A DNA stretch of 42,655 nt from Candidatus Bathyarchaeota archaeon. Its GTDB lineage: Archaea; Thermoproteota; Bathyarchaeia; 40CM-2-53-6. Position 1 is the first letter of the stretch. Every line of letters starts with the position of its first letter. Positions 1,481 to 16,547 of this stretch are shown piece by piece. A model generated the notes under the pieces. That model did no database searches. It saw only the letters and a program-made list of their open reading frames with translations, and was not told the DNA's origin. The stretch spans positions 1 through 42,655 of the forward strand of contig VBBP01000016.1 of NCBI GenBank assembly GCA_005884195.1, given 5' to 3'. The position numbers and the translations under genes were made by a program.

Positions 1481-1715
1481 ACAACGTCAGAGGCCCTACG
1501 TGATTCGGAAAGAACTCACGAAGCCTTAGCTGCAAATCGAAAAATCTAAAAATTTGTCCTTTTCATGGAAGTTACGCAAGGATTTAGGAGGGCAAGTAAG
1601 GCGCGATTCATTGAAGAATTTACGTTAGAAATCTTCAACCAACAATCCATCTTTTTCTCTCAGTTTACAGATTGTTCTTCAACCATAAGGATTAAACGAG
1701 GGATGAAATTGCCGG

Positions 1716-2117
1716 TTGTCGGACGTGAAATACCTGCCGCGAAGAGCTGTTCGAAGACCGGCCAAGCAAAAGACAACAATCCTGTTCAAGGCTGGGAACC
1801 TGCCCAGCACTCCTGAAGAACTATTCCGACGGGTCTTCTGGAAGAGCGACTTTCTAGCGGGCGAGGCCCACAACTTTTGGAAGGAAGTCAAGAAGGCAGA
1901 ACCAAGTGGTCTACCAATTCAGGCATGGAAGGACTGGATCTCGAAACGTGGGATGAGCGTCGGACAATTCTATAACATGATACATGGACTCGTTGGAGCG
2001 GGATTCATCGAGAAGCGCGATTCTAAATGGCACATGAGTGAGGGTTTCATGCAGGAACTGGAACAGATGATGAAAGTATATTCTTCAGAAAGTGGCTATG
2101 AACCTAAAATGAAATAG
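1716..2117 (+). CDS. Small winged-helix-like protein
   Basis: A 133-residue protein beginning at a TTG (a GTG at 1725 is also possible). The N-terminus is basic (PRRAVRRPAKQK). The C-terminal half reads like a winged helix: SVGQFYNMIHGLVGAGFIEKR resembles a recognition helix leading into the wing, followed by SKWHMSEGFMQELEQMM. It could be a DNA-binding regulator of the neighbouring recombinase region, but no family can be named. A hairpin with an A-rich loop just after the stop (about 2120-2135) may help end transcription. Confidence 0.55.
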   Translation: MSDVKYLPRRAVRRPAKQKTTILFKAGNLPSTPEELFRRVFWKSDFLAGEAHNFWKEVKKAEPSGLPIQAWKDWISKRGMSVGQFYNMIHGLVGAGFIEKRDSKWHMSEGFMQELEQMMKVYSSESGYEPKMK

Positions 2118-2164
2118 TCATCCAAAAAACTGGATCATTGGCATACATCCAATAAATTGAAGCC

Positions 2165-2656
2165 CTAACGGCGGGCCTTCAAAAGTCGTCCTTGAAGATC
2201 AATTTCCCCATTCTTGACCCTAGTGGTTGAGATTGGTTTTCCGTCAGCAGCCCTGAACAAATCGACGACGTGCAGATCCAACAGCGGAAGATGATTCTGT
2301 CTTCTAAGACGGTTCAACCGACGACCACTTGCAAGAGTACCCTTACTGACAATTAGCGCTTCCAGCTTCTCGCGCCTAGCAGCTGGGCCATAAGGCTCGC
2401 GAAGCATAGATATTCTTACCCGCGACGACCAGCGCCGAGTCTTCAGAAACCTTCGCAGTTCACGAACCCGATTTGAAAACGGGCGGACTTGGTGTTTCTT
2501 ATGGAGGGTCACTACAAGTCGGTCGCTCGTGACTCCGATCAAAACTGTGTCTCCAAGTTTGAAAGCCTCAGAGAGCAAATGTCGGTGGCCGGCGTGTAAG
2601 ACGTCGAAAGTTCCTCCGAGAGCCACAAGTTTGTATCGGCGGGCTGATCGGGACAA
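2165..2656 (-). CDS. coaD: Phosphopantetheine adenylyltransferase (archaeal type)
   Basis: This enzyme transfers AMP from ATP to 4'-phosphopantetheine to make dephospho-CoA, the penultimate step of CoA synthesis. The nucleotidyltransferase motif is clear: ALGGTFDVLHAGHRHLL (residues 12-28, with T/HxGH). The C-terminal ISTTRVKNGEID replaces the ISSTxIR motif of the family. The length of 163 residues suits the archaeal PPAT group. The start is TTG at 2656; no ATG or GTG precedes the Rossmann strand. Four other CoA genes lie at 31.2-34.7 kb, so the pathway is split between two loci in this window. Confidence 0.9.
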   Translation of the reverse strand: MSRSARRYKLVALGGTFDVLHAGHRHLLSEAFKLGDTVLIGVTSDRLVVTLHKKHQVRPFSNRVRELRRFLKTRRWSSRVRISMLREPYGPAARREKLEALIVSKGTLASGRRLNRLRRQNHLPLLDLHVVDLFRAADGKPISTTRVKNGEIDLQGRLLKARR

Positions 2657-2829
2657 GTCGCGCCCTCTGGGGGCCGGATTTTAAGGATAAAGCTTGGGCT
2701 GCCATAGCGAATTCCTTCGGTTTTCTGGAGAGCAATGCGAAAAAGACCCGCCACGTCTTCGTCAGATGTGCGCTCCACTCTCGGGTCACGAGATGCAGTA
2801 GCTAAGACCCCCTGTTTTTCTTCAAGCAT
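2539..2829 (-). CDS. Uncertain ORF upstream of and overlapping coaD
   Basis: An ATG-started frame of 96 residues. Its first half (VERTSDEDVAGLFRIALQKT, then GSPSFILKIRPP) looks protein-like, while its second half overlaps coaD by 118 bases and is probably not meaningful. It could be a real short gene with an unusual overlap, a gene whose end is frameshifted, or noise. I recognise no family. Confidence 0.25.
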   Translation of the reverse strand: MLEEKQGVLATASRDPRVERTSDEDVAGLFRIALQKTEGIRYGSPSFILKIRPPEGATCPDQPADTNLWLSEELSTSYTPATDICSLRLSNLETQF

Positions 2830-3242
2830 TTCGTGTCTGGCGGCATAACGGAGGATACAGAACGATCAAATCACAATCCGGGGGTTTTGTCGATCCGGAA
2901 TTATCCGGATTTACAGCACAAATTATCCCACGTTCTAAACGTGCATGTTCAGATCGCGATTAGAGCTGAAAATAGCCCGATTCGGTCGCTAGCCGTGCCT
3001 ACACCTATGCCGCATCAGAGATCTCAGGCAAACCTGCGAAAGGATCAGATGGGTGGCTTCCTTACCCCGATTATTCAACGAACTTCGCAGTGGCGACAGT
3101 TCAACATCCACCCTTACGACAATGTAGTGTCCAGGCTAACCAAGCGAGCGCGACCTGATCAATCGAACAACTCCTGGATTCTCGCTCTATCCAGTTCGAC
3201 GAAACCTATTATGGCTAGTCAAGGAACAACCGAGAACTTCGT
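2830..3242. other. Intergenic region upstream of the tRNA
   Basis: This 413-base stretch holds an open frame on the plus strand that runs into the tRNA and has no recognisable protein features; I treat it as non-coding. A short palindromic repeat (ATCCGG...ATCCGGAT, about 2894-2911) is visible. No confident promoter for the tRNA was found. Confidence 0.4.
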
Positions 3243-3384
3243 AGCCCGGTGGTGTAGTGGTCTAGCATAGCATGGGCGTTTCGGGCCAGAAACACGGAAG
3301 CGTCCCTAGTCGGCTCTGGATCCCCTCAAAAAGAGGGGTTGGAGCAACCTGCTGACGGGAGTTCGAATCTCCCCCGGGCTACCA
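3243..3384 (+). tRNA. tRNA-Gln(CTG) with two predicted introns
   Basis: The acceptor stem AGCCCGG (3243-3249) pairs with CCGGGCT (3374-3380), followed by A and an encoded CCA. The T arm is GGGAG-TTCGAAT-CTCCC (3357-3373), and the D arm GTGT...GCAT fits with a 9-base loop. A full anticodon arm forms only if two segments are removed: 3273-3311 (39 nt, inside the 5' strand of the anticodon stem, between positions 29 and 30) and about 3320-3346 (27 nt, at the canonical 37/38 site). This gives stem GCAGG/CCTGC and loop CTCTGGA with anticodon CTG at 3316-3318. The mature RNA would be 76 nt. The 3' end from about 3363 is the repeated attachment sequence of the island. Intron borders are deduced from pairing only. 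Confidence 0.8.
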
Positions 3385-3729
3385 TAGTGGGCGCTAGAAA
3401 GATTCGGTATTCCATTGCCTTTGAAGAAGCTCTGGGCGAAGCGTTCCGTTAAGGTCCTGAGCTCCCCTTGCTCTTTCTCCTGGGGAGAGGCTTCTATCCT
3501 GTGCGGTTCGCCGAAACCTTCGGTTTGAGCTTCTTCTCGGAGAATCTCTCCTGGGTTGAGTCCACGTCCCCGAATGAACGCTTCTATGATTTGCCGGTCT
3601 GTCAGTTTCGGTTTTGGAGTGATTGTTAGGTCTGCTTTTGAGTATAATTCCCGTGAGAACTCCTCGCCTTTGCCTCGAATGTCGTTGTAGAGGGTTGACG
3701 AGCTATTCTGATATTCAGTGGAGTCTTTC
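3314..3729 (-). pseudogene. Decayed gene reading antisense into the tRNA
   Basis: The minus-strand frame has no ATG, GTG or TTG after a TAG at its upstream end, yet encodes convincing protein: STLYNDIRGKGEEFSREL, then LTDRQIIEAFIRGRGLNPGE and ILREEAQTEGFGEPHRIEA. It continues into the tRNA 3' end (residues GSPGEIRTPVSRL) and stops inside the tRNA. A neighbouring upstream frame (about 3725-3775) encodes LKVLVGNRTKRRLERL, which could be the missing start shifted by one base and resembles a ribbon-helix-helix strand plus helix. I read it as the 5' portion of an element gene cut at the attachment site. The family is unknown. Confidence 0.45.
3363..3384 (+). repeat. tRNA 3' end, attachment-site copy 0
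   Basis: The T-loop to CCA segment of tRNA-Gln. Copies of this sequence recur at 7524-7545, 11236-11252, 12040-12060 and 14950-14966, all in the same direction and all ending exactly at CCA. The tRNA 3' half is a classic target for tyrosine integrases, and the functional tRNA stays intact at the left end. Confidence 0.75.
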
Positions 3730-3939
3730 TAACCGGCGTTTTGTTCGGTTACCCACCAGAACCTTTAGCCCAATTGGTCAATTAGGTCAAAGCGGTCAAG
3801 AGTGTCGCCAAAGCCGAGGAATTGTCGAGGCCAAAAGAAATCCCTCGATTCCTTGAGAAGGAAGCTGCCTTGAAGGCGTCTCCAATTGTGTTCGGATGTG
3901 TACCTCCCGTTGATATTTCGCAGTTATCACGCATCATTC

Positions 3940-5670
3940 ATGATTCCGAGGATATGGAAGTTTCGTCGCTCAATTTTGATCATGCAGACGGTTATTCTAT
4001 CCGCGCTGGCGGTCTCCATACCGCAAGCCGTTCACGCTACACCTTCCTTAGGATTAGATGGGGTGGGAACCAACAATTGTCAAGGACAATTTTGTGTTCA
4101 CTCTCAATTACTGACAACCACCATGGGAGACGATGTGATCATCGTCGTTCTTGAATGTGGCGACGGTAATCCCTGTAAGGTGTCCGGTGTTATTGACAAC
4201 AGTGGACTAACATTCGTTCAGCGCATCTCTTATCGCAATTCCGATTTGGTCGGCAATACTCTCTGGGAATATTATGCGATAACTACGTCACCCTTGAATT
4301 CGGATAATATTACGGTGGCCGCACCCGGCTGTTGTGAAGGTATGCAGGTTGTTGCTATCCATGGTGCAAACACGAGGGCGGTATTTGACACAAATCCTTC
4401 GACACCGGCAACTTGTTCGGGTACTGCCTGCGGCAATTGCTATGCAGACTGGAACACTAACCCAGGCACATGTTCCGCCTATATCCAGACTTCTGGCCTG
4501 GACTTTGTAATAGCGTCAACACAGATCAACGATGCTCCACCCTGTGGGGGATACTCCTACTCACCAGCAGGCTACACTCCGCCGCCGGGATTCACCAACA
4601 TAACAAACCAGAACAATCGGTTTGAGGTGGATTATACAATAACCACTACGCAACAAAGCAATGTCGTGTTCAATTGCAATGGTACTGACGCTAGCGCAAT
4701 CGTCGTCGATGCAATTTCTTCCTCTGAACATTCGCCGATTCTGATCAATGGGAACGACGCTTTCACAAGCGACAATGGTGTTACAGGCGGAACTGGTTCT
4801 AGTAACGATCCATATCTGATAAGCGGCTGGACCATTCAGTCCCAAGACTTCGGAATCGAGGTAGCAAATACAACCGCATTCTTCACCATTACTCACGTCA
4901 CTGTTTCGTGCGGTATCCCTGGTCAGCCGACATGTCTCGAAGGAATAGTCCTATCCTCCATACAAAATGGCGCAGTCCAGAACTCGCACATTTCAGTCCA
5001 GGGCATCGGTGTCCGAGTCGAAAATTCTGGCAACTTCCAGCTTACAAGTAACGATGTCCGCTCGGGAGGAGTGGATGAGTGCGGAGGTGCCCCCGCGTGC
5101 GAAAGATGGGGGGCGATCTTTCTCAACATGTCAAGCAGCTTCGATATCAGCAACAACAGTCTAGAGGGTGGCCTCGGAGCCATCAACGGCTTCAACTTGA
5201 GCGATTCCAGCATAGTTGGAAACACTGGTGGAGGGGAGGACGGAATCACCCTGCACTATCTTTCCGGCTTCCTAGTAAGCCAGAATAGCATTCGCGCACA
5301 CATCCCGATCGGCGTCTCTAGCTGCGGAGACTTGACCATTGAGAATAACGCCCTAGATTCTCCGAACGCGGGAATAATGGTCTCTAACTGCAACAATGTT
5401 CTCGTCTCGAACAATACAGCAAATGTCAGCGGTGGCGAGGAGGGTATTTGGGTGACAGGATCGGACAGCATAAACGTCACAGCGAACACACTATCGCACA
5501 ACACCAACGGAATCCGATTATCGAACTTTGCCACCGGAAACACGATCACTGGTAATCTAATCAGCAATAACCAGTGCGGGATCCAAACCGACTCAACATC
5601 AACCATCAACCAGAACCACGTAGCCGACAACACGTTCGCAGGAAATACTCAAGACTATTGCAGCCTGTAA
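3940..5670 (+). CDS. Secreted parallel beta-helix protein
   Basis: The ATG at 3940 precedes a signal peptide (basic MIPRIWKFRRS, then hydrophobic ILIMQTVILSALAVSIPQA and a VHA cleavage site); a frame extension to 3886 is possible but unneeded. The next 250 residues form a Cys-rich domain without a recognised family. From about residue 270 there are many short repeats of the kind GIxVxNSxNxxLTxNxxS and NNTxxxxGxxGIxV, typical of right-handed beta-helix (PbH1/NosD-like) proteins. These are often carbohydrate-active or adhesive and act outside the cell. No C-terminal membrane segment is visible, so it is probably released. It is the main cargo of the first module of the island. Confidence 0.75.
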   Translation: MIPRIWKFRRSILIMQTVILSALAVSIPQAVHATPSLGLDGVGTNNCQGQFCVHSQLLTTTMGDDVIIVVLECGDGNPCKVSGVIDNSGLTFVQRISYRNSDLVGNTLWEYYAITTSPLNSDNITVAAPGCCEGMQVVAIHGANTRAVFDTNPSTPATCSGTACGNCYADWNTNPGTCSAYIQTSGLDFVIASTQINDAPPCGGYSYSPAGYTPPPGFTNITNQNNRFEVDYTITTTQQSNVVFNCNGTDASAIVVDAISSSEHSPILINGNDAFTSDNGVTGGTGSSNDPYLISGWTIQSQDFGIEVANTTAFFTITHVTVSCGIPGQPTCLEGIVLSSIQNGAVQNSHISVQGIGVRVENSGNFQLTSNDVRSGGVDECGGAPACERWGAIFLNMSSSFDISNNSLEGGLGAINGFNLSDSSIVGNTGGGEDGITLHYLSGFLVSQNSIRAHIPIGVSSCGDLTIENNALDSPNAGIMVSNCNNVLVSNNTANVSGGEEGIWVTGSDSINVTANTLSHNTNGIRLSNFATGNTITGNLISNNQCGIQTDSTSTINQNHVADNTFAGNTQDYCSL

Positions 5671-5964
5671 TGCTGAATGATCTACCTCCGCATGTCGTCC
5701 AGATTCGACCAAACCAGTCTCGCACAGTCCCCCCACACAACCAATTGTGCTAATTATCGCATCATACTTGAAATTCTTCGGGGATTCGTCAGGGAACAGG
5801 CAATTTACGTGGGCCGCTCGAAGCGGATTGATGTAGTGTGCTAACTGTGGGCAAGGTTCTCTGGGCAGGCAAGTCGGCGGCGGCCATAATCTAGACTTTT
5901 CAGATGCTGGGTCGCGCTATGCCGTTATTGTCGTTCTCTCAAAGCGTCCGCAGAGGCAATCAGA

Positions 5965-6267
5965 TTGGGAAAGGAATCTGAACAAGCCCAGCATGAGAGA
6001 GCGGAAAAAACGCTCCTTGCCATCAAGGAGTGCAAGGGTTACTTGGAAGGAGTGGAGAAGGAACTCAGCCGCATGTCAAAGAAATTCTCGAATAGAGAAA
6101 TCGCTCAAGGTGTGGGATTCGCAGTGACTGGAATTCATGAAGCCCTAACCTATCTAGACATCGTCAAGAAGGTAATCGAGAAAACCGAGCGCATGGTCAC
6201 CAAGAAGAATCTTGTTTCTGTCAACGAGACAGACAGGCTTCCCCGAGCCACTGGAGACCTTCAATAG
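5965..6267 (+). CDS. Small charged helical protein
   Basis: A 100-residue protein starting at TTG. It is rich in Glu and Lys with heptad-like spacing (AEKTLLAIKECKGYLEGVEKE and IVKKVIEKTERMV), suggesting two helices that may form a coiled coil. There is no signal peptide or known motif. It lies in the first module between the beta-helix gene and the small CxxC protein gene. The function is unknown; regular amino-acid composition supports it being a real gene. Confidence 0.5.
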   Translation: MGKESEQAQHERAEKTLLAIKECKGYLEGVEKELSRMSKKFSNREIAQGVGFAVTGIHEALTYLDIVKKVIEKTERMVTKKNLVSVNETDRLPRATGDLQ

Positions 6268-6621
6268 GAAATCGTGATAGGTGCCCCAAATAGGGGTTTG
6301 CGGCGGTTACAAGGAACGGACGCAGTTCAAAACTTCTAGAGAAAGCAAACGTACCCGCGAGGTCGCCGGTTTATGATTGTCTATTTGAGAGAGGACGAGA
6401 TCGAGTTCGTTGCAGGGGTCCGCGTGATTGGAGCCGGGAAAGGTTAGGTCTGTCCGGGAAGTAGATCGCTGTGACCCTGACTACCCGCTGAAGTGTCAGC
6501 GCCCGTTGTCTATGACCAAAAGCCTCGCCCCGTGAAGCTGGGGATGTTTACTGTTTTGAGTACAGTGTACAGGCTGCCGTTATTAGCCTCGCCCTGTTGA
6601 GGAACGAGGGGTCATCAGGCA
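6268..6621 (+). other. Non-coding leader region of the first CxxC gene
   Basis: No gene is seen. The last 60 bases before the GTG at 6622 (from CCGTTATTAG at about 6578) resemble the leader of the paralogous gene at 7675, including a shared GGGGTCA-x-CAGGCAGTGAA around the start. The conserved leader may hold the promoter or another control element. A GCCTCGCCC motif occurs twice in it (about 6525 and 6588). Confidence 0.35.
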
Positions 6622-6870
6622 GTGAAGGATTATCAGAGGGACAATACTCCGCTCTGCATCGTCTGCGGAGACGAGATCGAGCATGAGCAGTCTGTCTTCC
6701 AGCTAAATGAGGAAACGGTCCAGATCTTCACGCCCACATTCTCGCCGTTGAACAGTCTCGGGCTGATGCACCCCATGTGTCTCGGTGAGATCACAGATCA
6801 TGTCTGGCAGACTCTTGAGCCTGCCGCAAAGGTGATTCCCCCACTCGTCTTGAAAAGGTGTATCGCTTAG
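6622..6870 (+). CDS. Small CxxC/HxxC zinc-binding-like protein (paralogue 1)
   Basis: An 82-residue protein starting at GTG. LCIVCGDEIEHEQ gives a CxxC knuckle near residues 12-15, and LMHPMCLGEI gives an HxxC about 40 residues later, together a plausible zinc site of treble-clef type. It is clearly homologous to the protein at 7675-7983: shared TPxCxVCGxxIxHxQ, QLNE, FTPTF, SxGLxH, CxGEI and LPLLVLK-like segments. The function is unknown. The pair lie on either side of an attachment-site repeat, which suggests they came with duplicated or related elements. Confidence 0.6.
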   Translation: MKDYQRDNTPLCIVCGDEIEHEQSVFQLNEETVQIFTPTFSPLNSLGLMHPMCLGEITDHVWQTLEPAAKVIPPLVLKRCIA

Positions 6871-7046
6871 TGGAAGAGATCAGGCGGGCCATAATCGGCA
6901 TACTCAACTCTCTCCGCAAGAACGTGGGCATGCCGCTGATAAACGAACGGGAACTAGAGAAACTCCTTTCTGGAAGGCCGAAGACGACCGGACGCTCAAG
7001 TCGTAATCTGTCAAGTATGTTACATTTGCAACACGATGAGACATGA
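6858..7046 (+). CDS. Small hypothetical protein
   Basis: A 62-residue frame starting with GTG and overlapping the end of the preceding gene by 13 bases. VEEIRRAIIGILNSLRKNVG and INERELEKLLSGR look like helices. The overlap suggests translational coupling, if it is real. No family is recognised; the C-terminal third is low in structure. Confidence 0.3.
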   Translation: MYRLVEEIRRAIIGILNSLRKNVGMPLINERELEKLLSGRPKTTGRSSRNLSSMLHLQHDET

Positions 7047-7523
7047 ACGATCTTTCTGTTCCGCCTGGCTGGTTTTTAAGCGGAGCGCTCTACTGGGAGA
7101 CGACCGGTAAGCCATCACCTTTGTGCGGAGGATGTTACAATTACAATGCTCCAGGTGTCCTCTCGACCCCTGTCCTAGGCGAGAAGCCTGACGTATACTG
7201 TTAGCCTTGGGTCCTCTAGCTCCTCTGCGAACCGTTCCAGTATCGAGAACGATTCCACTACACGGCCATCCTCTAAAGGAGCAGAAAACATTCTTAGATC
7301 TACAACCCGTTGCAGGCGATTAGGCTTAGCCTGATTCGCTATGCATTCTTAATTCCAAAAACAGGGCAAAGAGGGCTCCCGCCGAAGTAAACGCTTGAGA
7401 CAGCTGAGGCCGTACCTTAGGAAATTCATAGATACCCGACATGGGAGTCGCGGACAAGAAAAAGGGGAGAGGCTAAGATGACTTCTCTGCTAGCTTTGAG
7501 TACTGTTGTTTTCTAGTGCCCGC
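7047..7523. other. Intergenic region before attachment copy 1
   Basis: I see no gene. A possible TATA-like run (GGTTTTTAAG) is at about 7071-7080 and a short inverted repeat (AGGCTTAGCCT) at about 7323-7333. Otherwise nothing recognisable. Confidence 0.35.
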
Positions 7524-7545
7524 TCGAATCTCCCCCGGGCTACCA
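7524..7545 (+). repeat. tRNA-Gln 3'-end copy 1
   Basis: A 22-base exact match to the tRNA from inside the T loop to the encoded CCA. The 5' flank does not form a tRNA, so this is a 3' fragment only. It marks the junction between the first and second modules. Confidence 0.8.
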
Positions 7546-7674
7546 GCGGTGATCCGCGACTGCATACCACAGATCATGGTTCTATCATCAGGAACCCCGC
7601 CTGCAGATTGGTGTATACCTTGGTGTACCGTTATTAACCCCGCCATCTTAAGGGGTTTTAGGGGTCAGCAGGCA

Positions 7675-7983
7675 GTGAACAATTATCTGAGAGAGATTAC
7701 TCCATTCTGCGTTGTCTGTGGGAAAGGGATCGATCACGATCAGCCAGCGTACCAGTTGAATGAGGGAACAACCCAAGACTTTACTCCTACGTTTATCCCC
7801 GGGTCTAGTGTCGGACTGCTTCACGCCTCCTGCTTTGGAGAAATCTTGGAACATGTATGCCAGACCCTTCTGCCGGTTCCATTCAAAAGTGTGATTCCGG
7901 TAAAGCCAAGATTGCCTTTGCTGGTTTTGAAAAACCCTGCTCAAGTCCCAGTCAAAACGCCGAGGGAAGTGCCCGGCAAGTAG
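7675..7983 (+). CDS. Small CxxC/HxxC zinc-binding-like protein (paralogue 2)
   Basis: Homologue of the 6622 gene. I place the start at the GTG at 7675, because the aligned leader and first residues (VNNYLREITPFC against VKDYQRDNTPLC) match from there; the frame is open further upstream but lacks homology. FCVVCGKGIDHDQ carries the CxxC and LLHASCFGEI ends in Cys (H-x-x-C), as in the paralogue. It is 102 residues, with a longer Pro/Lys-rich tail. It is the first gene of the second module and its leader region is conserved with the first copy. The function is unknown. Confidence 0.6.
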   Translation: MNNYLREITPFCVVCGKGIDHDQPAYQLNEGTTQDFTPTFIPGSSVGLLHASCFGEILEHVCQTLLPVPFKSVIPVKPRLPLLVLKNPAQVPVKTPREVPGK

Positions 7984-8119
7984 GAAACGGTTCAGTTTTG
8001 GACGTTCCCGAACTACGTCTCATTTGATCGGCCTTCGAGCAGCGCGACTTAAACCTACTTTTGAGTGCAAGAAGGTATTCAGCTCCTCGCTATTTTTCGT
8101 GCCTGCCAGAAGCGATGGT

Positions 8120-10816
8120 TCATTCGTCACCCGTTAGCCGCTTCATCCGACGCTTATCATAGTCCAGATTTGATCGAGCTCGGACGGTGACGAGGACAAG
8201 GGAGGCGACCAGTCCGAATAGTCCTCCGACAACGAGGAGTCCCCAAGTGGAGGATACCAAGGGTATTACAGTGCACGACAAGCAATTCCCATTCGAGCCA
8301 GTGCCTGTCGCACCGCCCGAGCCCCCGTTTGAACCTGGAGGCAAGGCGGGGTCCACTTGCATGGTCATGAATCTCGTGTCTCGTTGGGAGGGGTTGCTAT
8401 TGTCTATCGCTGAAAACGCTATCGTGTACGTACCAGTCTGGCTAGTGCTTGGCGTCCAAGAGAAGACCCCTGTTGCCGAATCGAACGTTGCGCCTGGAGG
8501 CAGCCCTGATGCGATGAGACGCACAGCTGCTCCCGGGTTTGCATCTGTGGCATTCACCACGAATCTGAGCGTGCTCCCAACGGTCAGAGTCTGGTTACTA
8601 GGAAGGCTGAGAACCAGCGGGTTAGCAGAGATGACCGCGACAACTGTCGACGCTGACGCCGTCACGCCGATGGAATCTGAGACCTGAAGGCTAACAACAT
8701 AGGTTCCGGAAACGGAGTAGAGGTGGGAGTTACCTGAGCCTGTGCCTGTCGTACCGTCCCCGAAATTCCAGGAGTAAGCGTAGGGTGCGGTACCCCCGCT
8801 CGCCGTGCTTTTGAAAGATATGCTCTGGCCTGGGGCCGGAGAGACGGGTGTGAAGCTGATGGTTGTCGTCAAGCCGGACGGTGGAGGGGGAGCCCCGGTC
8901 GTCAGACTTACAGTATCCCAATTCACGTCCAGTTCTTGGAACTGGTATCCTTCTGTTCCTATCTCTATTCCCGCTAGCTGGCACTGAGTGGAGGAGGGTA
9001 ATCCCCACGCGGATAGATCGCTCTGGCACTGCTGCGCGACATCAGCGGTGAGAGTATAGCTCTGGCCGACAACGATATCCGACAGGGTAACCTGGTCCCA
9101 ACCGAAGGAATCTCCTGGATCATACGTGGCAGTTGATCCGACTGAGCTGAAAGTACCACCCACATTCTCGACGCGGACCTGAGTATCAAGACACTGGTAG
9201 GTGGAGCCGCCGGCTGTGACAGCGCCGTTCGGAAGCCAGTAGTACAATGCGATGTAGATGTGGTATCTATCCGTGCTTTGGGTTGAACTGGGGGCATAGG
9301 CTAGAAACGTGAAGTGAGAGCTGATACTGGTTACACCGGATGGGATCGCGCCTGAAGCAGGTGCCTGGCATGGGCTCCATGGAAAAGTGCCCATCTGGGT
9401 GGTGGCGTAGTTGTAGCTGTTGCTACCGCCCTGTCCTGGGTTCGACTCGCGAGTATCCAAAATGCCACTGACAATTGTCGCTGAGCTTGTCGATGGGGTA
9501 GCGTTGCCGCAGCTCCAGCCCTGAGGAAGACTTGTGCATGATCCGAAATTGCCTGTTAGCGATGTGGACGATGACACTGTGACTGTCTGGGAACTCGTCA
9601 CCGTCTGTTGGGGTGAAGACGAGTCTTTCGCCGTTTCTGTTACCGTGAATGTTTGAGCAACAGGGTAGGATTGAGTCGATATAGCTCCGGTTCCGGTTGC
9701 CCCGTCGCCGAAGTTCCAACTAATCGTGTAAGGTGCCGTTCCTCCACTAGTTGTGGCCGTGAACGTCACGGGCACGCTTACGAGAGCAGTGGAGGGTGAT
9801 GCTGTGAAGCTTGTTGAGAGAGGAAGTGGAGGACAATTGGTTGTGCAGGCGGCTCCGATGGCACTGAGCATGTTGGGTGCTCCTCCGTCGTTTGAGTTGA
9901 TTGGCGATAGTCCCCACGCGGCCTCGATTGTCGACAGGTATGAGTAGTGAGATGCATTAGGTGGACTGATCTGTACTCCTTTCTTTGCTACTGGCCCGCT
10001 GAAGGATGCGTAAACGCACTCGCCGGTCCCACCAGTACTGGCACATTGATTGTAGCCCTCATCGTACAGTACGAGCAATGTCGCCTTTGTCGTGGTGAAC
10101 TCCGTGCTCGCAAGAATCTTCGGCACTAGCCCTGCTAGGTAGCTGTCGCCTCCAGACACCCCGGAGTCATGTCCGTTATCATTATCGTTCGGTGTTAGCC
10201 AGATGAAATTTGCAGGACTGGGCGCATTTAACGCGGCGAGAAACTCGGGGTCACTTGAAGAGGATGTCGTGAGGAAATGGGAGCATCGGCTCGCTGTGTT
10301 CATGTCCGAAAAATCGATGAATCCAAAGTGGTCTCCCCCTCTTGGAGGGCTGAAATTGCATGTTCCCGAGTTGCCCGCGTCCTCAGCGAACGCCTGCCAG
10401 GTCAACCCTGAAGATTCTATCTTATCGACCAAGTTAGGCGAAGTCTCGAAGTAACAACAGACCCCGTCTCCGCTCGTACTTCCATCATTGATAGCTCCGA
10501 ACAATGCAATATAGTTCGGCTCGCTGTTATGGTTGATAGTTCCCCACGTCATGACCAGAGAATTCTGGTCTGCCAGCGTACTCTCGTAGGTGCCTGAGCC
10601 ACCGCAGCCGGTGTATACGCTGCACAGAGCCTGATTTTCCATCATAATAGTGACAATATGATCGAACGGTGCGCCAGCAGGCATAGCCATACTGGTGCCC
10701 CGAGGATGAGATGGATCACTGGCGGCCAGTGGACCTGACAGTAAAGATCCCAGCAGGATGAAGCTAGTCAACAGCAAAACCTTACTCGTTCTACTGAACC
10801 ATGTTCCTTCCGACAA
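8120..10816 (-). CDS. Membrane-anchored extracellular phosphoesterase with PKD domains
   Basis: This 898-residue protein has a signal peptide (about 1-32) and a catalytic domain of the phosphoesterase family that includes phospholipase C and acid phosphatase AcpA. FDHIVTIMMENQ (51-62) holds the metal-binding Glu-Asn, and PNDNDNGHD (209-217) and YDEG (251-254) are further family landmarks. It would remove phosphate from lipids or other esters outside the cell. Two PKD domains follow (each with SWNFGDG), around 335-417 and 650-730, separated by a domain I do not recognise. An Ig-like putative domain (GLPPGATFDSATGVFSWTP) and a Gly/Ser linker come next, then a membrane helix near the C-terminus with a basic tail. 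The start is TTG. It is the main cargo of the second module and runs opposite to the neighbouring paralogue gene. Confidence 0.85.
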   Translation of the reverse strand: MSEGTWFSRTSKVLLLTSFILLGSLLSGPLAASDPSHPRGTSMAMPAGAPFDHIVTIMMENQALCSVYTGCGGSGTYESTLADQNSLVMTWGTINHNSEPNYIALFGAINDGSTSGDGVCCYFETSPNLVDKIESSGLTWQAFAEDAGNSGTCNFSPPRGGDHFGFIDFSDMNTASRCSHFLTTSSSSDPEFLAALNAPSPANFIWLTPNDNDNGHDSGVSGGDSYLAGLVPKILASTEFTTTKATLLVLYDEGYNQCASTGGTGECVYASFSGPVAKKGVQISPPNASHYSYLSTIEAAWGLSPINSNDGGAPNMLSAIGAACTTNCPPLPLSTSFTASPSTALVSVPVTFTATTSGGTAPYTISWNFGDGATGTGAISTQSYPVAQTFTVTETAKDSSSPQQTVTSSQTVTVSSSTSLTGNFGSCTSLPQGWSCGNATPSTSSATIVSGILDTRESNPGQGGSNSYNYATTQMGTFPWSPCQAPASGAIPSGVTSISSHFTFLAYAPSSTQSTDRYHIYIALYYWLPNGAVTAGGSTYQCLDTQVRVENVGGTFSSVGSTATYDPGDSFGWDQVTLSDIVVGQSYTLTADVAQQCQSDLSAWGLPSSTQCQLAGIEIGTEGYQFQELDVNWDTVSLTTGAPPPPSGLTTTISFTPVSPAPGQSISFKSTASGGTAPYAYSWNFGDGTTGTGSGNSHLYSVSGTYVVSLQVSDSIGVTASASTVVAVISANPLVLSLPSNQTLTVGSTLRFVVNATDANPGAAVRLIASGLPPGATFDSATGVFSWTPSTSQTGTYTIAFSAIDNSNPSQRDTRFMTMQVDPALPPGSNGGSGGATGTGSNGNCLSCTVIPLVSSTWGLLVVGGLFGLVASLVLVTVRARSNLDYDKRRMKRLTGDE

Positions 10817-11235
10817 AGTGTCCTAGTAGCCTCCTTCCAGCCTGAACACGATAGCCAGACGCTCCCGGTTCAGATCTACCGATACGATTCTTGTTTTCAC
10901 ATTCAACTCTTTCACGACCCCGGGCGAGATCACTATGCCCGAGCCGAACAATCCGCTCGCATTGCCGACGCAGAACCAGACTCTTTGTTGTGAGCGAGTT
11001 CTTCGGCAGGAAACTAGTATAGTGCTTGCCTTGGTTTATGCGAGTCCGAACTTCTCGTGAGAGTATTTGGTACTTGTGCCCAGTGCCCATACGACCCTCC
11101 GCAAACACGCCAGGGACACTGCTCCAAAGGGAGCCCAGGCGAGCCCTAAATGAATCACAAATCCGGTGTCCTTCCTTGGCAGAAAGAAAGGGAAGAGTTT
11201 GTAAGCCCTGTTATGAAGTCGTGGCCCGCCACCGG
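10817..11235. other. Intergenic region before attachment copy 2
   Basis: Overlapping frames exist on both strands but none shows protein-like composition or a signal. No promoter, RNA gene or repeat is evident except the extended attachment sequence at its right end. Confidence 0.35.
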
Positions 11236-11252
11236 TCTCCCCCGGGCTACCA
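11223..11252 (+). repeat. tRNA-Gln 3'-end copy 2 with extended left flank
   Basis: The last 17 bases (TCTCCCCCGGGCTACCA, 11236-11252) equal the tRNA 3' end. The 13 bases before it differ from the tRNA but match copy 4 (14937-14966) with one mismatch over 30 bases. Copies 2 and 4 therefore share an element-derived left arm. Confidence 0.75.
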
Positions 11253-11264
11253 GTGAACATTCAC
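11253..11264 (+). repeat. GTGAACATTCAC, first copy
   Basis: A 12-base sequence immediately right of attachment copy 2. The same 12 bases occur at 12029-12040, immediately left of (and overlapping by one base) attachment copy 3, so the short third module is flanked by them. It is close to an inverted repeat (GTGAA...TTCAC). Confidence 0.6.
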
Positions 11265-11410
11265 TAGATTATTCTGCTGCGTTATGGTCCTCGATTGGCG
11301 GTCAGTCGCATCTTCCTAGAGAACAAGGCGAGATTACTGAGCTGAAGGATACGATAACACGATCAGAGACGATGTTCAAGGAGGCTATGAAGAAGAAATC
11401 GAAAGACTAG
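11265..11410 (+). pseudogene. Possible 3' gene fragment at a module edge
   Basis: The frame ending at 11410 encodes EQGEITELKDTITRSETMF followed by KEAMKKKSKD, a plausible charged helical C-terminus. The open frame continues left through the attachment repeat (start at 11150), where it is not protein-like. This may be the surviving end of a gene cut at integration, or chance. Confidence 0.25.
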
Positions 11411-11534
11411 GACGACTTGTCCATTGCGGCTCTAGCATAGGACTCGGATCACCGCACGATCATCTTTCTATTCGAACACCCGAACAAGTCTGCATATCGA
11501 AAACTTACAAAGTCGCACGACAGCTGGACAAAAA

Positions 11535-11822
11535 TCAGCGGTTGCATGGAAGGTGGATCGTGGAGCTGGTTTCGAAAGCTATTGGTGGTCTCAGCTGCTC
11601 GTTATAGATCATCCCTACCTTGAATAAAGCGTAGGAAATCGACATGATGCTGGGTGAAGGGAGACCCTGAACAAGATTGTCTACTGGAGGGCAGTCGTAT
11701 TTGTACCCCAAGCCTTGATACGTCGTCCCAGGAGGCACCAGTCCTTCGGGATAAACAGGTACGAGTATGAAGAACGAAAGGAAGATCGCGACCATCAGAG
11801 TGATGGCGGTATTCCTGCGCAT
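11535..11822 (-). CDS. Small secreted protein
   Basis: A 95-residue protein with a clear signal peptide: MRRN, then a hydrophobic core TAITLMVAIFLSFFILVPVYP. The mature part is about 70 residues with two Cys and many Tyr and Pro, with no family recognised. It is the only good gene of the short third module. A TATA-like sequence (GTCTTAAGG on the coding strand, about 11858-11866) lies roughly 40 bases upstream. Its small size and location fit the pattern of extracellular cargo in the island. Confidence 0.55.
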   Translation of the reverse strand: MRRNTAITLMVAIFLSFFILVPVYPEGLVPPGTTYQGLGYKYDCPPVDNLVQGLPSPSIMSISYALFKVGMIYNEQLRPPIAFETSSTIHLPCNR

Positions 11823-12039
11823 TCGCTAGCAACACGGGTAATGCGTCAAGCTCGCCTTAAGACTGCTGATCAATCGGTTTCTTGAATGGCCTATAGCCGC
11901 CCTCTGTCCTGATTTTCAGTCTCTTCTTTCGAGCATGGCGATTCATAGGCTTTCTGGAGCCTGACGGATGAAGAAGCGAACAAGAAGAGAGAAGAGATTG
12001 CAGCTCGATTACGGGACGGTATAATCCCGTGAACATTCA
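11823..12039. other. Intergenic region before attachment copy 3
   Basis: Nothing protein-like is seen; the minus-strand frame crossing the repeat here has no features of a real gene. The possible TATA element of the secreted-protein gene is included. Confidence 0.3.
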
Positions 12040-12060
12040 CGAATCTCCCCCGGACTACCA
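12029..12060 (+). repeat. GTGAACATTCAC second copy plus tRNA-Gln 3'-end copy 3
   Basis: 12029-12040 repeats the 12-base sequence of 11253-11264. 12040-12060 matches the last 21 bases of the tRNA with one change (CCCGGAC in place of CCCGGGC). This is the only diverged copy, which may mean it is the oldest or is no longer a target. Confidence 0.7.
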
Positions 12061-12151
12061 TTGGCTGGCCCCATGCTGTGTCTCGTACGTATCGCCCTTT
12101 CGCCAGTGTCAAGACAGGATCGGACTGTGCATCAATTCGACAGGACCTATT

Positions 12152-13873
12152 CTAGGAGGGTATTGGCGGATCGAGATAGCCGTTCGCGAAATATGGCTGG
12201 GTTGCGCTGATATCGTACATTACGTGATTGCCTTCAAGAATCACTTCGATTCTCGTCACTGCCCGCCAGCCTTGCTGGGTCAGGAGCGAGTCTCCTACCC
12301 GGAGTTGGGTGACTGGAAGCCAAAGTGCTGCGCCACTAGACGGCTTCGTCCACAGGTTCTCTGTCGTGCTTGCGTCTACTCTCAGAGGTATTCCTCCGTC
12401 GGTGTGAATGACTAGCATATTTGTTGCGGGGACCACCGTGACTCGGGTCACGGTTGAAATAGTATAACTCCCATAGGTGGTCTCGTAACCCAACATCTTA
12501 TCGCCGACTCTGATGTTCTGAACGGGGACGCGTGTGCCGTCTGCCATTGTAATCAGCGTCCCATGGACTAGGCTACCAGCTCCCCCTCCCCCGTTGGTTT
12601 TGCTCATTGAGCCCTGAAAGTTCCAATACCCTCCTAGAGTGGCGTTCGAATTTAGTGTCGCAGGGCCGTCCGCCCAGACCATCGCATCAGTCCAACTGGC
12701 ATCATTCCAGTTGGCTGTGATCGTGTGACAGCCAAAACCACAAACTACAGCGCGTCCAACATCGCTTGTATGTCCTAGGAATTCCGACTGTCCATAGGCG
12801 CCATCGAAGAGATAGGCATGCGCTTTCACTGGGACTTCAGACTCAACGACGAGTTCTACAAAATAATCGACATTCGGCAAGGGCGTGAAGCTGGAACAGG
12901 TATAGCACTTAATCGCATCGACACCCCAATAACCCGCATCACCCTGGTAAATGACCAGTTTCGCACCGTCATTGTCCAACTCGAAGTTGACAAAGGCTTT
13001 GCCAGAAGCGGGTGCTCCTATCTGCCAGCCTACTCCAAACCGGTTCAGAGTGGTGGCCGTCACGTGGGCAAACATGAGGGCAATACCCGATGATGGGAGT
13101 GAACCGGAATTGTAGACGCCTGCCTGCCGGTGGCAACTACACCCATATGCTACCATCAATGTTGGAGGATAAATCGGTGGGCTAGGCTGATTATTACAAT
13201 ACCAACAGAGGTAGCCACCAGACACGTCAGTATTCGAAAAAGGGGTCGACACCACCACTCCGTACAGAGCAATCGCGCCATCGATATCGTCCTTTACAGG
13301 AAAAAATACTCCACCCTGACATTGGGGATCGAGGACAACATCGTATTCGTACATCAGGGTGCAAGGACGCCCAGAATGCGCAAGCCCCAAAGAATGCCCC
13401 ATCTCATGTGCTATGACTTGACCCACAAATTCGCGGGAGTCCACGTTCGGATATTGCTGCTCGAAGCTCTGTATGTTAGCATCGGCTAGGGTTATCACAA
13501 CTGGAGTGTTGACGTAACCGTTTGAGCAGTAGATTTTCTTGTTCGCCAGTCCTCCATGATTGTAGGTTGTTCCGAAGAAGTCAAAGTTTGGATTATTGGT
13601 GCTGTTGATTACCACCGCTGCCATCCCTTGGTTCGATACAGGGGCAAAATAAAGCAGAGCAGGAACATCATTCCATACTTCTGCCGCCCAAGGGACTTGA
13701 AGCGATTCCATGGCCGACGCCCCGTTGTAGTATTTGATTTGCAACGGGTTCTGCTGCTTGCATAGGCTTCCGTTGTTGTCCTGACTGTAGAATAACGAGT
13801 AGCCTTCCACGGATAACGCCTCAGTGGAGACAAGAATTATTCCGATTAAGACTGCAACAATCAGCAGTCTCAT
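12152..13873 (-). CDS. Secreted matrixin-like metalloprotease fused to a degenerate Hint domain
   Basis: 573 residues with a signal peptide (MRLLIVAVLIGIILVSTEAL). The zinc motif HEMGHSLGLAH (156-166) is the HExxHxxGxxH of metzincins, and TLMYEYD with Met174 is the Met-turn; the enzyme should cut proteins outside the cell. The middle (about 215-425) is Cys-containing and unrecognised. The last 140 residues are a Hint (hedgehog/intein) domain: SLVHGTLITMADGTRVPVQN at 434, RVGDKMLGY, then a final YDISATQPYFANG. The usual first Cys is Ser434, the block B TxxH appears as TTEN, and the C-terminal His-Asn is absent, so normal splicing is unlikely. Start codon overlaps the stop of the upstream membrane-protein gene by four bases (ATGA). 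Confidence 0.85.
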   Translation of the reverse strand: MRLLIVAVLIGIILVSTEALSVEGYSLFYSQDNNGSLCKQQNPLQIKYYNGASAMESLQVPWAAEVWNDVPALLYFAPVSNQGMAAVVINSTNNPNFDFFGTTYNHGGLANKKIYCSNGYVNTPVVITLADANIQSFEQQYPNVDSREFVGQVIAHEMGHSLGLAHSGRPCTLMYEYDVVLDPQCQGGVFFPVKDDIDGAIALYGVVVSTPFSNTDVSGGYLCWYCNNQPSPPIYPPTLMVAYGCSCHRQAGVYNSGSLPSSGIALMFAHVTATTLNRFGVGWQIGAPASGKAFVNFELDNDGAKLVIYQGDAGYWGVDAIKCYTCSSFTPLPNVDYFVELVVESEVPVKAHAYLFDGAYGQSEFLGHTSDVGRAVVCGFGCHTITANWNDASWTDAMVWADGPATLNSNATLGGYWNFQGSMSKTNGGGGAGSLVHGTLITMADGTRVPVQNIRVGDKMLGYETTYGSYTISTVTRVTVVPATNMLVIHTDGGIPLRVDASTTENLWTKPSSGAALWLPVTQLRVGDSLLTQQGWRAVTRIEVILEGNHVMYDISATQPYFANGYLDPPIPS

Positions 13874-14577
13874 GACTGGACTTGCGCCTCAAACTGTGCA
13901 AGGGGAATACTGTCTGCGTCAACAACCATCCAAGAATAGTCGTTTGGATAGAGCGTCTTGTAACCGTACACCATGCCGTTCTGAACGAGAAATTTCCCTT
14001 GAGCTCCGCCGACGAGGTGATAGGTGCTGACGAGCGGTGTTCCTGGTAAGGTGCACGGGGCAGCGGGAGGAGACGGGGCGCATGTCCAGTTATTCGAGAG
14101 AAAGAGGACATACTGACTGCCATCAGATACCACGGGTCCAAAAAAGGATGAATCAGTTACATAGAATGTTTTTGGGCCAGTGCCCACGAGATATGAGGAT
14201 GCATTCACTTGAAAGTCAAAATTCGAAGCAAGACAGCCAGTGTGTGGGCTATCGCAGTAGGATGAGTTAAGATTCAGAATCCCGGCCACAACAACGCTCG
14301 TCGAGTTACCTCTCAGTGAAGAGAAAGATTGGTAGACCACCCCTGACCGTTCATTTGGCCCGCCTCCTCCGCCTCCAAAGAACGGCAACTCGTTCTTGCC
14401 ACCATACAAGAGGAGGAGCGGTGCAATGATGAGCAGCAGAACGATAGTTGCCAGAACGACGATTCGTAACGCGCTAAACCTCGCAGACTGCGACTTACTT
14501 GACGAGTCCCTCCCGTCTCTCTCTGGAGGAAGGATCTGTTCTCGGGACGAGAATGGGCTCCCCAAGGGTAAAATCAT
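13870..14577 (-). CDS. Single-pass membrane protein coupled to the metalloprotease gene
   Basis: 235 residues: a Ser/Arg-rich cytoplasmic segment, one hydrophobic helix (LRIVVLATIVLLLIIAPLLLLY, about 37-58), a Gly linker, then an external domain of about 165 residues with a few Cys. No signal cleavage site is evident, so it is probably a type II anchor. The stop overlaps the start of the protease gene, which means one transcript and coupled translation. A role as receptor, pro-domain or inhibitor of the protease is possible but not shown by the sequence. No family is recognised. Confidence 0.65.
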   Translation of the reverse strand: MILPLGSPFSSREQILPPERDGRDSSSKSQSARFSALRIVVLATIVLLLIIAPLLLLYGGKNELPFFGGGGGGPNERSGVVYQSFSSLRGNSTSVVVAGILNLNSSYCDSPHTGCLASNFDFQVNASSYLVGTGPKTFYVTDSSFFGPVVSDGSQYVLFLSNNWTCAPSPPAAPCTLPGTPLVSTYHLVGGAQGKFLVQNGMVYGYKTLYPNDYSWMVVDADSIPLAQFEAQVQS

Positions 14578-14606
14578 TTGTGTTAAATGTAAACGGCTGC
14601 AAATTC

Positions 14607-14618
14607 TTAAGTTTATGC
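14607..14618 (-). promoter_or_regulatory. TATA box of the membrane protein/protease pair
   Basis: On the coding strand the sequence reads GCATAAACTTAA, about 30-40 bases upstream of the ATG at 14577. This spacing predicts a very short 5' leader, as is usual in archaea. Confidence 0.45.
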
Positions 14619-14936
14619 CCTCAAGAGGCCTATCATTTGTCGGACGGGAACGACTATGTCAACTTTTTTAAGACATGTGAGGGAAGGGCTGTTGGTTGGT
14701 TATCCCAATATCTAAGTTATCCGCGAGGCTATCCGCACGGCATTATGGTAACCATAACTGAGGAAGTCAGGGTCATAAGGGTCGGCGGATTCGAACTCCG
14801 AAGCTTGATTCCTCGAATGAGAGAGAACATGAGCTCAGTTGTTCCAGAGGTCTCTTCAAGCTCATTGACCCACTAGTGCTTGCCGCGAGGTTTAGAAAAA
14901 AAAGGATGAGGTTTTACGCTGTCGGTTTAGTTCCGC
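14619..14936. other. Intergenic region before attachment copy 4
   Basis: A plus-strand frame crosses this area without convincing protein features. A T-arm-like motif on the minus strand (GTTCGAA loop with a 4-base CGGA/TCCG stem, near 14783-14800) is not part of a foldable tRNA. A poly-A run is at about 14896-14903. Confidence 0.3.
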
Positions 14937-14966
14937 GGCCAGCCACCGGTCTCCCCCGGGCTACCA
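14937..14966 (+). repeat. tRNA-Gln 3'-end copy 4 (right border of island)
   Basis: Thirty bases matching copy 2 with one mismatch; the last 17 equal the tRNA 3' end. The rhomboid gene ends 44 bases beyond. This is the last copy and the presumed border with resident DNA. Confidence 0.75.
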
Positions 14967-15009
14967 CGAGGGATGGGATAAGTCGCATCGATTCCGGTCA
15001 AGCCGAGAT

Positions 15010-15615
15010 TTAGAAGTTTTTCAGCTCTGAGCTCCAGAACCTTCGAAGAAGGAGCCCGGTGATCAGGCCTCCGATGTGTGCGAAGAAACCTCCGCCGGCG
15101 AAGAGGTCCAAACCAGCGATGAATATGATCAGTATGACACCTCGCGGTCCTGTTGCAGCCCCCATGATGCCATAGACCGCGCCTGAGGCGCCTACTCCAC
15201 AGCTCCATGTTACGGGGTTCATGTTAGGGACACCGGTGAGAAAGAAGCCTGTTAGATCCGCTCCAACAAAGGTTAGGTTGCCCGCAACGCCTGTGAGAAA
15301 AAACGTTGCAACCCAACGAGTCTTAGTGACCTGTTCCTCCAGGATAAATCCGAATATCAACAGAAATAAGACATTACTGGCGATGTGAATGATACCTGCG
15401 TGCAGAAAGATAGACGTAACCAGCGTCCAAGGATAGATAGGCAGAGGGCCATCACATTGCACCAGCGCCAAAGGAAGGAGAGGGTTGACAAGATCCCCTC
15501 CAAGCACTCCCATAGCCATGTAGACAGCGATGAGTACGAGGGAGAAGACAAGCGTCGGAGAAGTCAGGTATGGGTTTGACCATCTCTCCCCCGACTCCTG
15601 AAAGTCTTCTTGCAC
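15010..15615 (-). CDS. Rhomboid-family intramembrane serine protease
   Basis: 201 residues with about six membrane helices. The catalytic Ser144 lies in GVGASGAVYG (GxSG) and the partner His180 in FFAHIGGLITG; the family HxxxN is HIASN (77-81). It cuts transmembrane segments of substrate proteins within the membrane. The start is GTG at 15615, chosen because a TATA box lies 26 bases upstream, so the mRNA is probably leaderless. It sits directly beyond the island's right border and is likely resident chromosome. Whether it processes the island's anchored proteins is speculation. Confidence 0.88.
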   Translation of the reverse strand: MQEDFQESGERWSNPYLTSPTLVFSLVLIAVYMAMGVLGGDLVNPLLPLALVQCDGPLPIYPWTLVTSIFLHAGIIHIASNVLFLLIFGFILEEQVTKTRWVATFFLTGVAGNLTFVGADLTGFFLTGVPNMNPVTWSCGVGASGAVYGIMGAATGPRGVILIIFIAGLDLFAGGGFFAHIGGLITGLLLRRFWSSELKNF

Positions 15616-15635
15616 AGGGCACGCCCATGCTCGCC

Positions 15636-15646
15636 ATCATATAACT
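15636..15646 (-). promoter_or_regulatory. TATA box of the rhomboid gene
   Basis: AGTTATATGAT on the coding strand, centred about 26 bases before the GTG start. This spacing places the transcription start at or next to the start codon. Confidence 0.55.
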
Positions 15647-15758
15647 TGCAAGCAATAAGCGGACAGACCCCTTCGGCCTTTTCCCTCGCCGAGCCCAAAT
15701 TCAAGCGTCAGAGTCAATCTGAGCGAAGAACGATTCCTACTAGGATGGTCCTGCGAGT

Positions 15759-16253
15759 CTAGCTGGAAAGAAGCCGCGTGCTTGATCCCCGCCTTCTGTG
15801 ACGAATCCATAGAGCACCTAGGAGGGCGGCCATGGCAACTATTCCTAATTGAGCCTCGTTGGTGAAAATCGACTGAATGCCAGATTTCTGAACAATCCCG
15901 TTCAATGATGCCAAATCAAACGGCTTCGAGACTGAACTGTACAGCCATACTACTATGAGCCCGGTTAGAAGCATGAAGGCGAATGCAAGGTGTCCCAAGC
16001 TTCTTTTCTTAGCCACTGCGGAGGGGAACGCAGGCTCAGGATTGAACCCCTGAAACCGAATGAGCTCTTCTGTGCCTGCAATCTCCTCAAGTCTCAGCGA
16101 ATCGTTTTCCCCGAGTTTTTGCTTGAGTTCGGCTTGCCTAGTCAGACTATCAAGAATGTCGTCAGTGGTAACCCTGTCCTTTTTCTGTCTCGTCACTGGA
16201 CCAGAGAACCCGAATCGATGACGTGCCCTGGGAGATCTAGAATCCGACCCCAA
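15759..16253 (-). CDS. Two-helix membrane protein
   Basis: 164 residues from a TTG start. A basic, charged N-terminal part (to about residue 87) contains a likely helix (TTDDILDSLTRQAELKQKLG). Two hydrophobic segments follow: LGHLAFAFMLLTGLIVVWLY and LGIVAMAALLGALWI. It ends with a short basic tail (RHRRRG). The N-terminal part probably lies in the cytoplasm. No family is recognised. It is separated from the rhomboid gene by 143 bases on the same strand. Confidence 0.6.
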   Translation of the reverse strand: MGSDSRSPRARHRFGFSGPVTRQKKDRVTTDDILDSLTRQAELKQKLGENDSLRLEEIAGTEELIRFQGFNPEPAFPSAVAKKRSLGHLAFAFMLLTGLIVVWLYSSVSKPFDLASLNGIVQKSGIQSIFTNEAQLGIVAMAALLGALWIRHRRRGSSTRLLSS

Positions 16254-16473
16254 CCTTGTCTTCCCACGGTACTGATGGGCTGATCACGAATTTGAGGATG
16301 AGAGTACTCGTCAACGCTGGATTAAGGACTGGCTCCATCCTCCCTGTCCTAGCCAGAAAGTCGGGTCAGGATTCCCGAAGCCGAGCGCGCGGAACCCGAC
16401 CTAGCCTATATACTTGTCGAAACACTTATATGCAAAATCGAACGCGTCGCTCTCGCTTTCCGAGCTTGGACTC

Positions 16474-16482
16474 TCTATAAAG
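16474..16482 (+). promoter_or_regulatory. TATA box of the TFB gene
   Basis: CTATAAAG about 70 bases before the ATG, predicting a leader of roughly 40 bases. Two other TATA-like stretches (CCTATATACTT near 16403 and ACTTATATGC near 16424) lie just upstream and could be alternative promoters. Confidence 0.45.
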
Positions 16483-16547
16483 CCCCCTCTGAAACCGGTC
16501 CGGAAAGCGGAGACGCAAACCTTCCTCGGAAACCCAGGGAAAAACCC

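Follow-up and report, generated by a model that had tools for sequence, protein, structure and literature searches.

We have analysed a stretch of 42,655 nucleotides from a Candidatus Bathyarchaeota archaeon (contig VBBP01000016.1, hereafter the window). It corresponds to contig C15 in a genome of 1.92 Mb (95% complete), whose nearest named relatives are 'Candidatus Bathyarchaeota' soil metagenome-assembled genomes of the BA_n series. A tRNA-Gln(CUG) gene is followed by an array of four cassettes, 11.6 kb in total, and at the end of each of them the 3' end of the tRNA is repeated (Table 1). This array probably represents four non-autonomous integrative elements, inserted serially at the 3' end of tRNA-Gln(CUG) and mobilised in trans.

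The array and the tRNA-Gln sites of related genomes

When both introns of the tRNA-Gln(CUG) gene are taken out, a clean 76-nt cloverleaf, tRNA-Gln(CTG), is obtained; because of the two introns the gene was missed by the ARAGORN default search and by Rfam gathering searches. The last 16 nucleotides of the gene, CTCCCCCGGGCTACCA, make up the attachment core. Four copies follow, all on the forward strand and all ending in CCA, and around the first of them the match to tRNA-Gln extends over 22 nt (7524-7545). With up to 3 mismatches, 7 matches to the core are found in the window where 0.29 are expected, a number reached in 0 of 100 shuffles. Of the 7 forward matches with up to 2 mismatches in the genome, five lie at the array locus, one in the second tRNA-Gln (contig C41) and one in a different tRNA; this second tRNA-Gln, UUG, holds the sole other exact copy. 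The scan of window and genome thus confirms a tRNA-Gln 3' end recurring in one orientation and ending in CCA, as described in a first-pass annotation of the same DNA. After cassette 4 the chromosome restarts at 14967.

Borders that repeat the tRNA 3' end in direct orientation, together with a tRNA left intact, are typical of elements residing at tRNA sites. Such elements also have an intact tyrosine integrase of their own; here cassette 1 has a C-terminal remnant of one, and none was seen in cassettes 2-4. With the integrase absent and both attachment-site ends retained, the cassettes share these two traits with CIMEs, or non-autonomous integrative elements.

In the first-pass annotation the modules were said to look like an archaeal cassette platform, and it had proposed a comparison of the tRNA-Gln locus among related genomes. 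This comparison supports its reading, as both empty sites and other modules were found, at tRNA-Gln(CUG) or at the second tRNA-Gln. The order of the modules is not fixed among the relatives, and the repeats are not equally common elsewhere in the genome. An empty CUG site is present in the soil Bathyarchaeota G001, G006, G007, G010, G015 and G017, where the tRNA 3' end is followed by a short spacer and a rhomboid gene, that is, by the sequence standing to the right of 14966 in the window. Compared with these relatives, the segment comprising tRNA, array and rhomboid gene is inverted relative to its PPAT/TFB neighbours in both the window and G013. Furthermore, G014 has one empty and one occupied contig or haplotype, which are ~98.5% identical over the shared 265 bp and diverge exactly at CCA.

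The closest relative, G013, has colinear flanks with 94.2% identity over window positions 1-3384 and 96.3% over 14931-21100. The array enclosed by them consists of three cassettes, which have only short end sequences in common with the four of the window. The final cassettes of the two arrays share only their last 36 bp (97%; 14931-14966 and L066:13760-13795), next to flanks that are 96% identical. At the second tRNA-Gln, arrays or single cassettes are found in many genomes of the family, and the platform extends family-wide and to both tRNA-Gln genes. In the class-level relatives that were searched, the core generally occurs about once for each tRNA-Gln gene, without comparable arrays. In G018 (L074:2265-2477) one cassette is reversed, with about 180 bp between two left ends that stand back to back.

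Several cassettes are shared between genomes. The first G013 cassette (3827 bp) was found at 94% identity in G018, which belongs to genus g2, split over two contigs; for comparison, identity between the two genomes is 75% in the TFB gene and 85% in a second gene. The difference between cassette and TFB gene suggests that such cassettes move. The right 2.6 kb of the same cassette is 89% identical to sequence at the other tRNA-Gln of G001, in a cassette bearing the left end of a different one. Downstream of the UUG tRNA of G010, 1.2 kb is 90% identical to a cassette of G020, a member of another genus (TFB 74%). Additionally, a 471-bp stretch of cassette 1 that includes 5965-6267 is 81.5% identical to a cassette at G013's other tRNA-Gln. 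As no integrase was recognised in the cassettes shared by G013 and G018, in that of G001 or in those of G010 and G020, integrase-less units appear, from sequence comparison, to have moved between genera. Taking the empty and differently filled sites together with the 94% cassette in another genus, the tRNA-Gln site is an exchange site for genes of surface and secreted proteins.

Table 1. Positions of the array, its cassette ends, cargo genes and flanking genes in the window.
Feature	Position	Strand	Remarks
Tyrosine recombinase, 202 aa	872..1480	+	outside the array; PF00589 5.8e-6
tRNA-Gln(CUG) gene, two introns	3243..3384	+	spliced form called tRNA-Gln(ctg) by ARAGORN
Introns of tRNA-Gln(CUG)	3273-3311, 3320-3346		
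Attachment core CTCCCCCGGGCTACCA, 16 nt	3369-3384	+	tRNA 3' end, ends CCA
Cassette 1	3385..7545	+	right end, core copy 7530-7545
Left-end palindrome, cassette 1	3385..3396	+	TAGTGGGCGCTA
Decayed C-terminal part of tyrosine integrase gene, cassette 1	3387..3728	-	tblastn to viral-contig integrase, 37.5-41% identity, E 1.6e-16 (whole-genome search)
Secreted right-handed beta-helix protein (NosD), cassette 1	3886..5670	+	PF05048 8e-18, PF13229 1e-13
100-aa protein, no assigned function, cassette 1	5965..6267	+	
Small protein with Cys pair, cassette 1	6622..6870	+	paralogue of 7660-7983
Right-end palindrome, cassette 1	7514..7525	+	TAGTGCCCGCTC
Cassette 2	7546..11252	+	right end, core copy 11237-11252
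Left-end palindrome, cassette 2	7546..7557	+	GCGGTGATCCGC
Small protein, cassette 2	7660..7983	+	paralogue of 6622-6870
Secreted phosphoesterase, PKD and Ig-like domains, cassette 2	8120..10816	-	PF04185 1e-12, PF18911 6e-22
Right-end palindrome, cassette 2	11221..11232	+	GTGGCCCGCCAC
Cassette 3, 808 bp	11253..12060	+	right end, core copy 12045-12060 (1 mismatch)
Left-end palindrome, cassette 3	11253..11264	+	GTGAACATTCAC
95-aa protein, hydrophobic N-terminal segment, cassette 3	11535..11822	-	
Right-end palindrome, cassette 3	12029..12040	+	GTGAACATTCAC
Cassette 4	12061..14966	+	right end, core copy 14951-14966
Left-end palindrome, cassette 4	12061..12072	+	TTGGCTGGCCCC
Secreted matrixin-like metalloprotease, C-terminal HINT-like domain, cassette 4	12152..13873	-	PF00413 2e-7; PF07591 6e-5, below cut-off
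Membrane-anchored protein, cassette 4	13870..14577	-	
Right-end palindrome, cassette 4	14935..14946	+	GCGGCCAGCCAC
Rhomboid protease gene, chromosomal right flank	15010..15615	-	directly after tRNA in empty-site relatives

Cassette ends and integrase remnants

A palindrome of 12 bp is found in every cassette end, at a constant distance from the tRNA-derived core. The palindromes have a 5-2-5 layout, and the cassette ends were scored at a fixed register. The left palindrome starts right after CCA (offset 0), with a mean of 3.04 of 5 pairs over 27 left ends against about 1.2 elsewhere. The right palindrome stops four bases ahead of the core (offset 4), with a mean of 3.43 of 5 pairs over 23 right ends. 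The sequences of the palindromes vary among cassettes and the pairing is kept: 83.6% of the cells are paired compared with 51.6% after shuffling, and two-sided changes number 40 compared with 14, a value reached in 0 of 500 shuffles. This covariation test was performed on 28 twelve-mers chosen by eye, which was not the case for the fixed-register set of 27 left and 23 right ends. As inverted repeats, the two ends of one cassette fit each other more closely than do ends taken from different cassettes (1 of 20,000 permutations), and outside the palindromes mirrored motifs resembling GGTATAAAGTC and GACTTTATACC were found. We have softened the view that the palindromes can only be read as hairpins, as CCA is followed by a palindrome in a further element too (L161), which belongs to the same integrase family and lies at a different tRNA.

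A profile of the right end, run genome-wide, gave strong matches only together with the tRNA-Gln core. Variants of the core (CTTCCCC in G001 and G018; ATCCCCC) recur with right ends of the same related type at different loci, and the core is therefore part of the element itself, not copied from the target. All 14 core substitutions in copies with exact boundaries fall within positions 1-10 of 16.

A pattern scan of viral contigs for the plain tRNA core identified one informative contig, L155 (27 kb), which also has a terminase gene; here the gene of a 518-aa tyrosine integrase abuts and reads into tRNA-Gln. The C-terminus of this integrase matches the left ends of cassette 1 of the window, of the third G013 cassette and of a G005 cassette at 37-52% identity; the remnant at 3387-3728 gave no Pfam match when searched alone. 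Viral contigs were also scanned for cassette-type ends and for the recombinase at 872-1480, and nothing was found. Longer integrases of the L155 type are present in G002, G005, G010 and G017, those of G005, G010 and G017 abutting other tRNAs. Integrases of the remnant family abut other tRNA genes within the same genus at L157, L158, L161 and L165.

With such remnants at the left ends of three of them, the cassettes are most simply seen as deletion derivatives of L155-type integrative elements, which have kept the ends and carry other cargo. The first-pass annotation was right that no intact recombinase lies inside the array, and it overlooked the decayed C-terminus in cassette 1. Its modules do lack a working integrase, yet three cassettes (cassette 1 and the two in relatives) keep remnants, from which it follows that the modules derive at least partly from ordinary integrative elements.

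Mechanisms considered for the array

The scheme we favour is insertion, cassette after cassette, by site-specific recombination of a tyrosine integrase, presumably by way of a circular intermediate. Each cassette would bring its own attachment site, divided over its two ends, with one palindrome and the 16-bp core on the right and the second palindrome directly after CCA on the left. Each insertion would restore the tRNA, and the earlier core would stay behind as a border. The ancestors would have been full elements with an integrase gene abutting the attachment site; this gene would have been lost, with its 3' end left in some cassettes. Excision and insertion would then depend on a helper virus or plasmid of the same tRNA-Gln specificity, whose integrase would act in trans, and in this way genes of secreted and surface proteins would be spread among soil Bathyarchaeota.

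Some of our results weigh against this scheme. No full-length integrase specific for tRNA-Gln was found in these genomes, and no helper in the same cell. G000 and G013 have only remnants of the L155-type integrase and no full-length copy, so that any helper would need to come in from elsewhere. The majority of the cassettes are without an integrase remnant, and two G018 arrays (C11, C60) have no tRNA alongside on their contig. Finally, three diverged core copies read CTACTA instead of CTACCA, which makes the exchange point placed by the core variants only suggestive.

The remnants in cassette 1 and in two relatives would equally be left if complete viruses or plasmids had integrated serially at tRNA-Gln and decayed in place, their integrase-less forms being immobile. 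Loss of the integrase gene after integration is known for archaeal elements (PMC8371274). We regard decay in place as unlikely, although it ranks next after the helper-dependent scheme. The same integrase-less cassette with its borders is found at 94% in two genera, which would need identical independent deletions. A single cargo gene is the rule in the cassettes (0.4-10 kb), and genes for packaging or replication, or other viral or plasmid genes, were not recognised in them. Their ends, moreover, remain conserved and covarying.

Palindromes that change their sequence and keep their pairing also bring to mind a tRNA-based, integron-like form of archaeal gene capture. Here the conserved chromosomal recombinase at 872-1480, or its counterparts, would insert mostly one-gene cassettes at sites recognised by shape, perhaps via folded covarying hairpins. 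A tyrosine recombinase gene occupies this position near tRNA-Gln, with PPAT/wHTH genes on one side and a conserved small gene on the other, in genera g1, g2 and g4 and in another family. The resident recombinase of the window is under strong purifying selection (dN/dS about 0.03-0.09), and a recombinase of this type is the only PF00589 match in the array-bearing G013. Nevertheless, we consider both the capture system and insertion by such a recombinase to be improbable. The attachment-site remnants indicate another integrase family; the CUG site is often empty in genomes that have the recombinase, and in G025, which has it too, no cassette was seen at that tRNA. Neither of the integron-integrase models TIGR02249 and PRK15417 matched it, and its positional counterparts in other genomes matched these far below cut-off. 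The resident recombinase was at one point the favoured enzyme and was demoted because of the remnants of another type at left ends and because its place is conserved in the second family, where no cassette was seen. That it drives cassette insertion is possible but less likely; its conservation fits a housekeeping role, which it may have. In the light of the integrase remnants, the archaeal cassette platform of the first-pass annotation is to be taken as a set of helper-dependent, site-specific elements rather than as an integron.

The recombinases in corresponding positions (872-1480 in the window; L152:5443-6528; L186:3209-4222) are very unlike as proteins. Beside the resident recombinase lies a gene for a GIY-YIG-type protein (27-599, reverse strand); adjoining this position, G013, G015 and G017 have one more tyrosine recombinase gene, which is divergent.

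Casposons can target tRNA 3' ends, duplicate about 14-15 bp and have inverted ends, which would speak for their kind of insertion here. Tandem casposons have also been described (PMC6563490). Insertion of the transposon type, in which a casposase (Cas1) or a Y1 transposase acting on hairpin ends would duplicate the target site, is however very unlikely: neither Cas1 nor a Y1 transposase (Y1_Tnp; IS200/IS605) was found in 12 genomes, most of them cassette-bearing, the core variants travel with the cassette rather than copy the target, and the end palindromes stand at unequal distances on the two sides. Short repeats can arise when tRNA fragments are scattered by tandem duplication or homologous recombination, and two cassettes do have a paralogous small gene, but an origin of this kind without any mobile element has almost no probability left, being refuted by the empty sites and the transfer between genera and at odds with the exact CCA borders and structured ends.

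Relation to known systems and cargo genes

Tandem arrays at tRNA sites and helper-dependent elements are both known. CIMEs and tandem accretion in bacteria share with the array the attachment-site borders, the absent integrase and the tandem arrangement at one site; mobilisation in trans or in cis would be a further common trait. The present cassettes differ by their size and mostly single cargo gene, their occurrence in Bathyarchaeota at both tRNA-Gln genes and their covarying palindromic ends. In archaea, integrated elements with tyrosine recombinases re-use the same site in tandem and lose the integrase after integration (PMC6563490, PMC8371274). Those elements are mostly larger and have their own integrase, whereas here integrase-less cassettes recur and are near-identical in two genera.

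Integrons, already described in archaea (PMC9668308), likewise array small one-gene cassettes at one chromosomal site, with variable sites of conserved pairing. In contrast, neither attC nor attI was recognised here (a dedicated attC model was not used), there is no integron integrase, and the core is a tRNA 3' end; where integrons have attC, the borders are tRNA 3' cores with palindromes on both sides. Hitchers, satellites and tycheposons (PMC11389934, PMC10872708) are helper-dependent cargo elements as well, some at tRNA genes; the cassettes differ in having no recognised packaging or replication genes, and their helper is only inferred. In SSV/pNOB8-type archaeal integrases, and likewise in L155, the gene borders on the tRNA attachment site with its 3' end or overlaps it, while the cassettes retain only the 3' remnant of the gene, or none.

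As far as we have found, a recurrent, family-wide array of mostly one-gene cassettes with secreted cargo is new in Bathyarchaeota; in the open-licence literature, to which the search was confined, no account of integrase-less cassette arrays in this group was found. Helper-dependent elements are suspected to form a large share of the moving gene pool, and few small integrase-less ones have been delimited in archaea. Here one can see the borders and empty sites, a near-identical sister genome with a different array and a near-identical cassette shared by two genera, so that the soil metagenomes already at hand can be used to measure how cassettes are gained and lost. Because of the palindromic ends, the search for the recombinase can be put to a direct test in vitro.

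The cargo was compared with flanking genes by a crude hydropathy test. The longest open reading frame has a strongly hydrophobic N-terminal stretch in 13 of 18 cassettes, compared with 11 of 97 flanking genes (p = 3e-7). In the relatives the cargo comprises CBM96, beta-helix and PKD proteins, RHS-repeat giants and, once, a methyltransferase. Cargo of secreted enzymes, beta-helix proteins and RHS-repeat surface proteins suggests a site at which these uncultured archaea change their outer face.

The paralogous small Cys-containing proteins of cassettes 1 and 2 (6607-6740 and 7660-7793) matched no family. The PT-HINT-like domain at the C-terminus of the protease encoded at 12152-13873 may perhaps serve self-processing. 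Very large RHS-repeat or RHS-like proteins are encoded in or beside cassettes of G005 and G018 (L068:5348-13917; L154:6261-14006), and these giants are possibly proteins of inter-microbial conflict.

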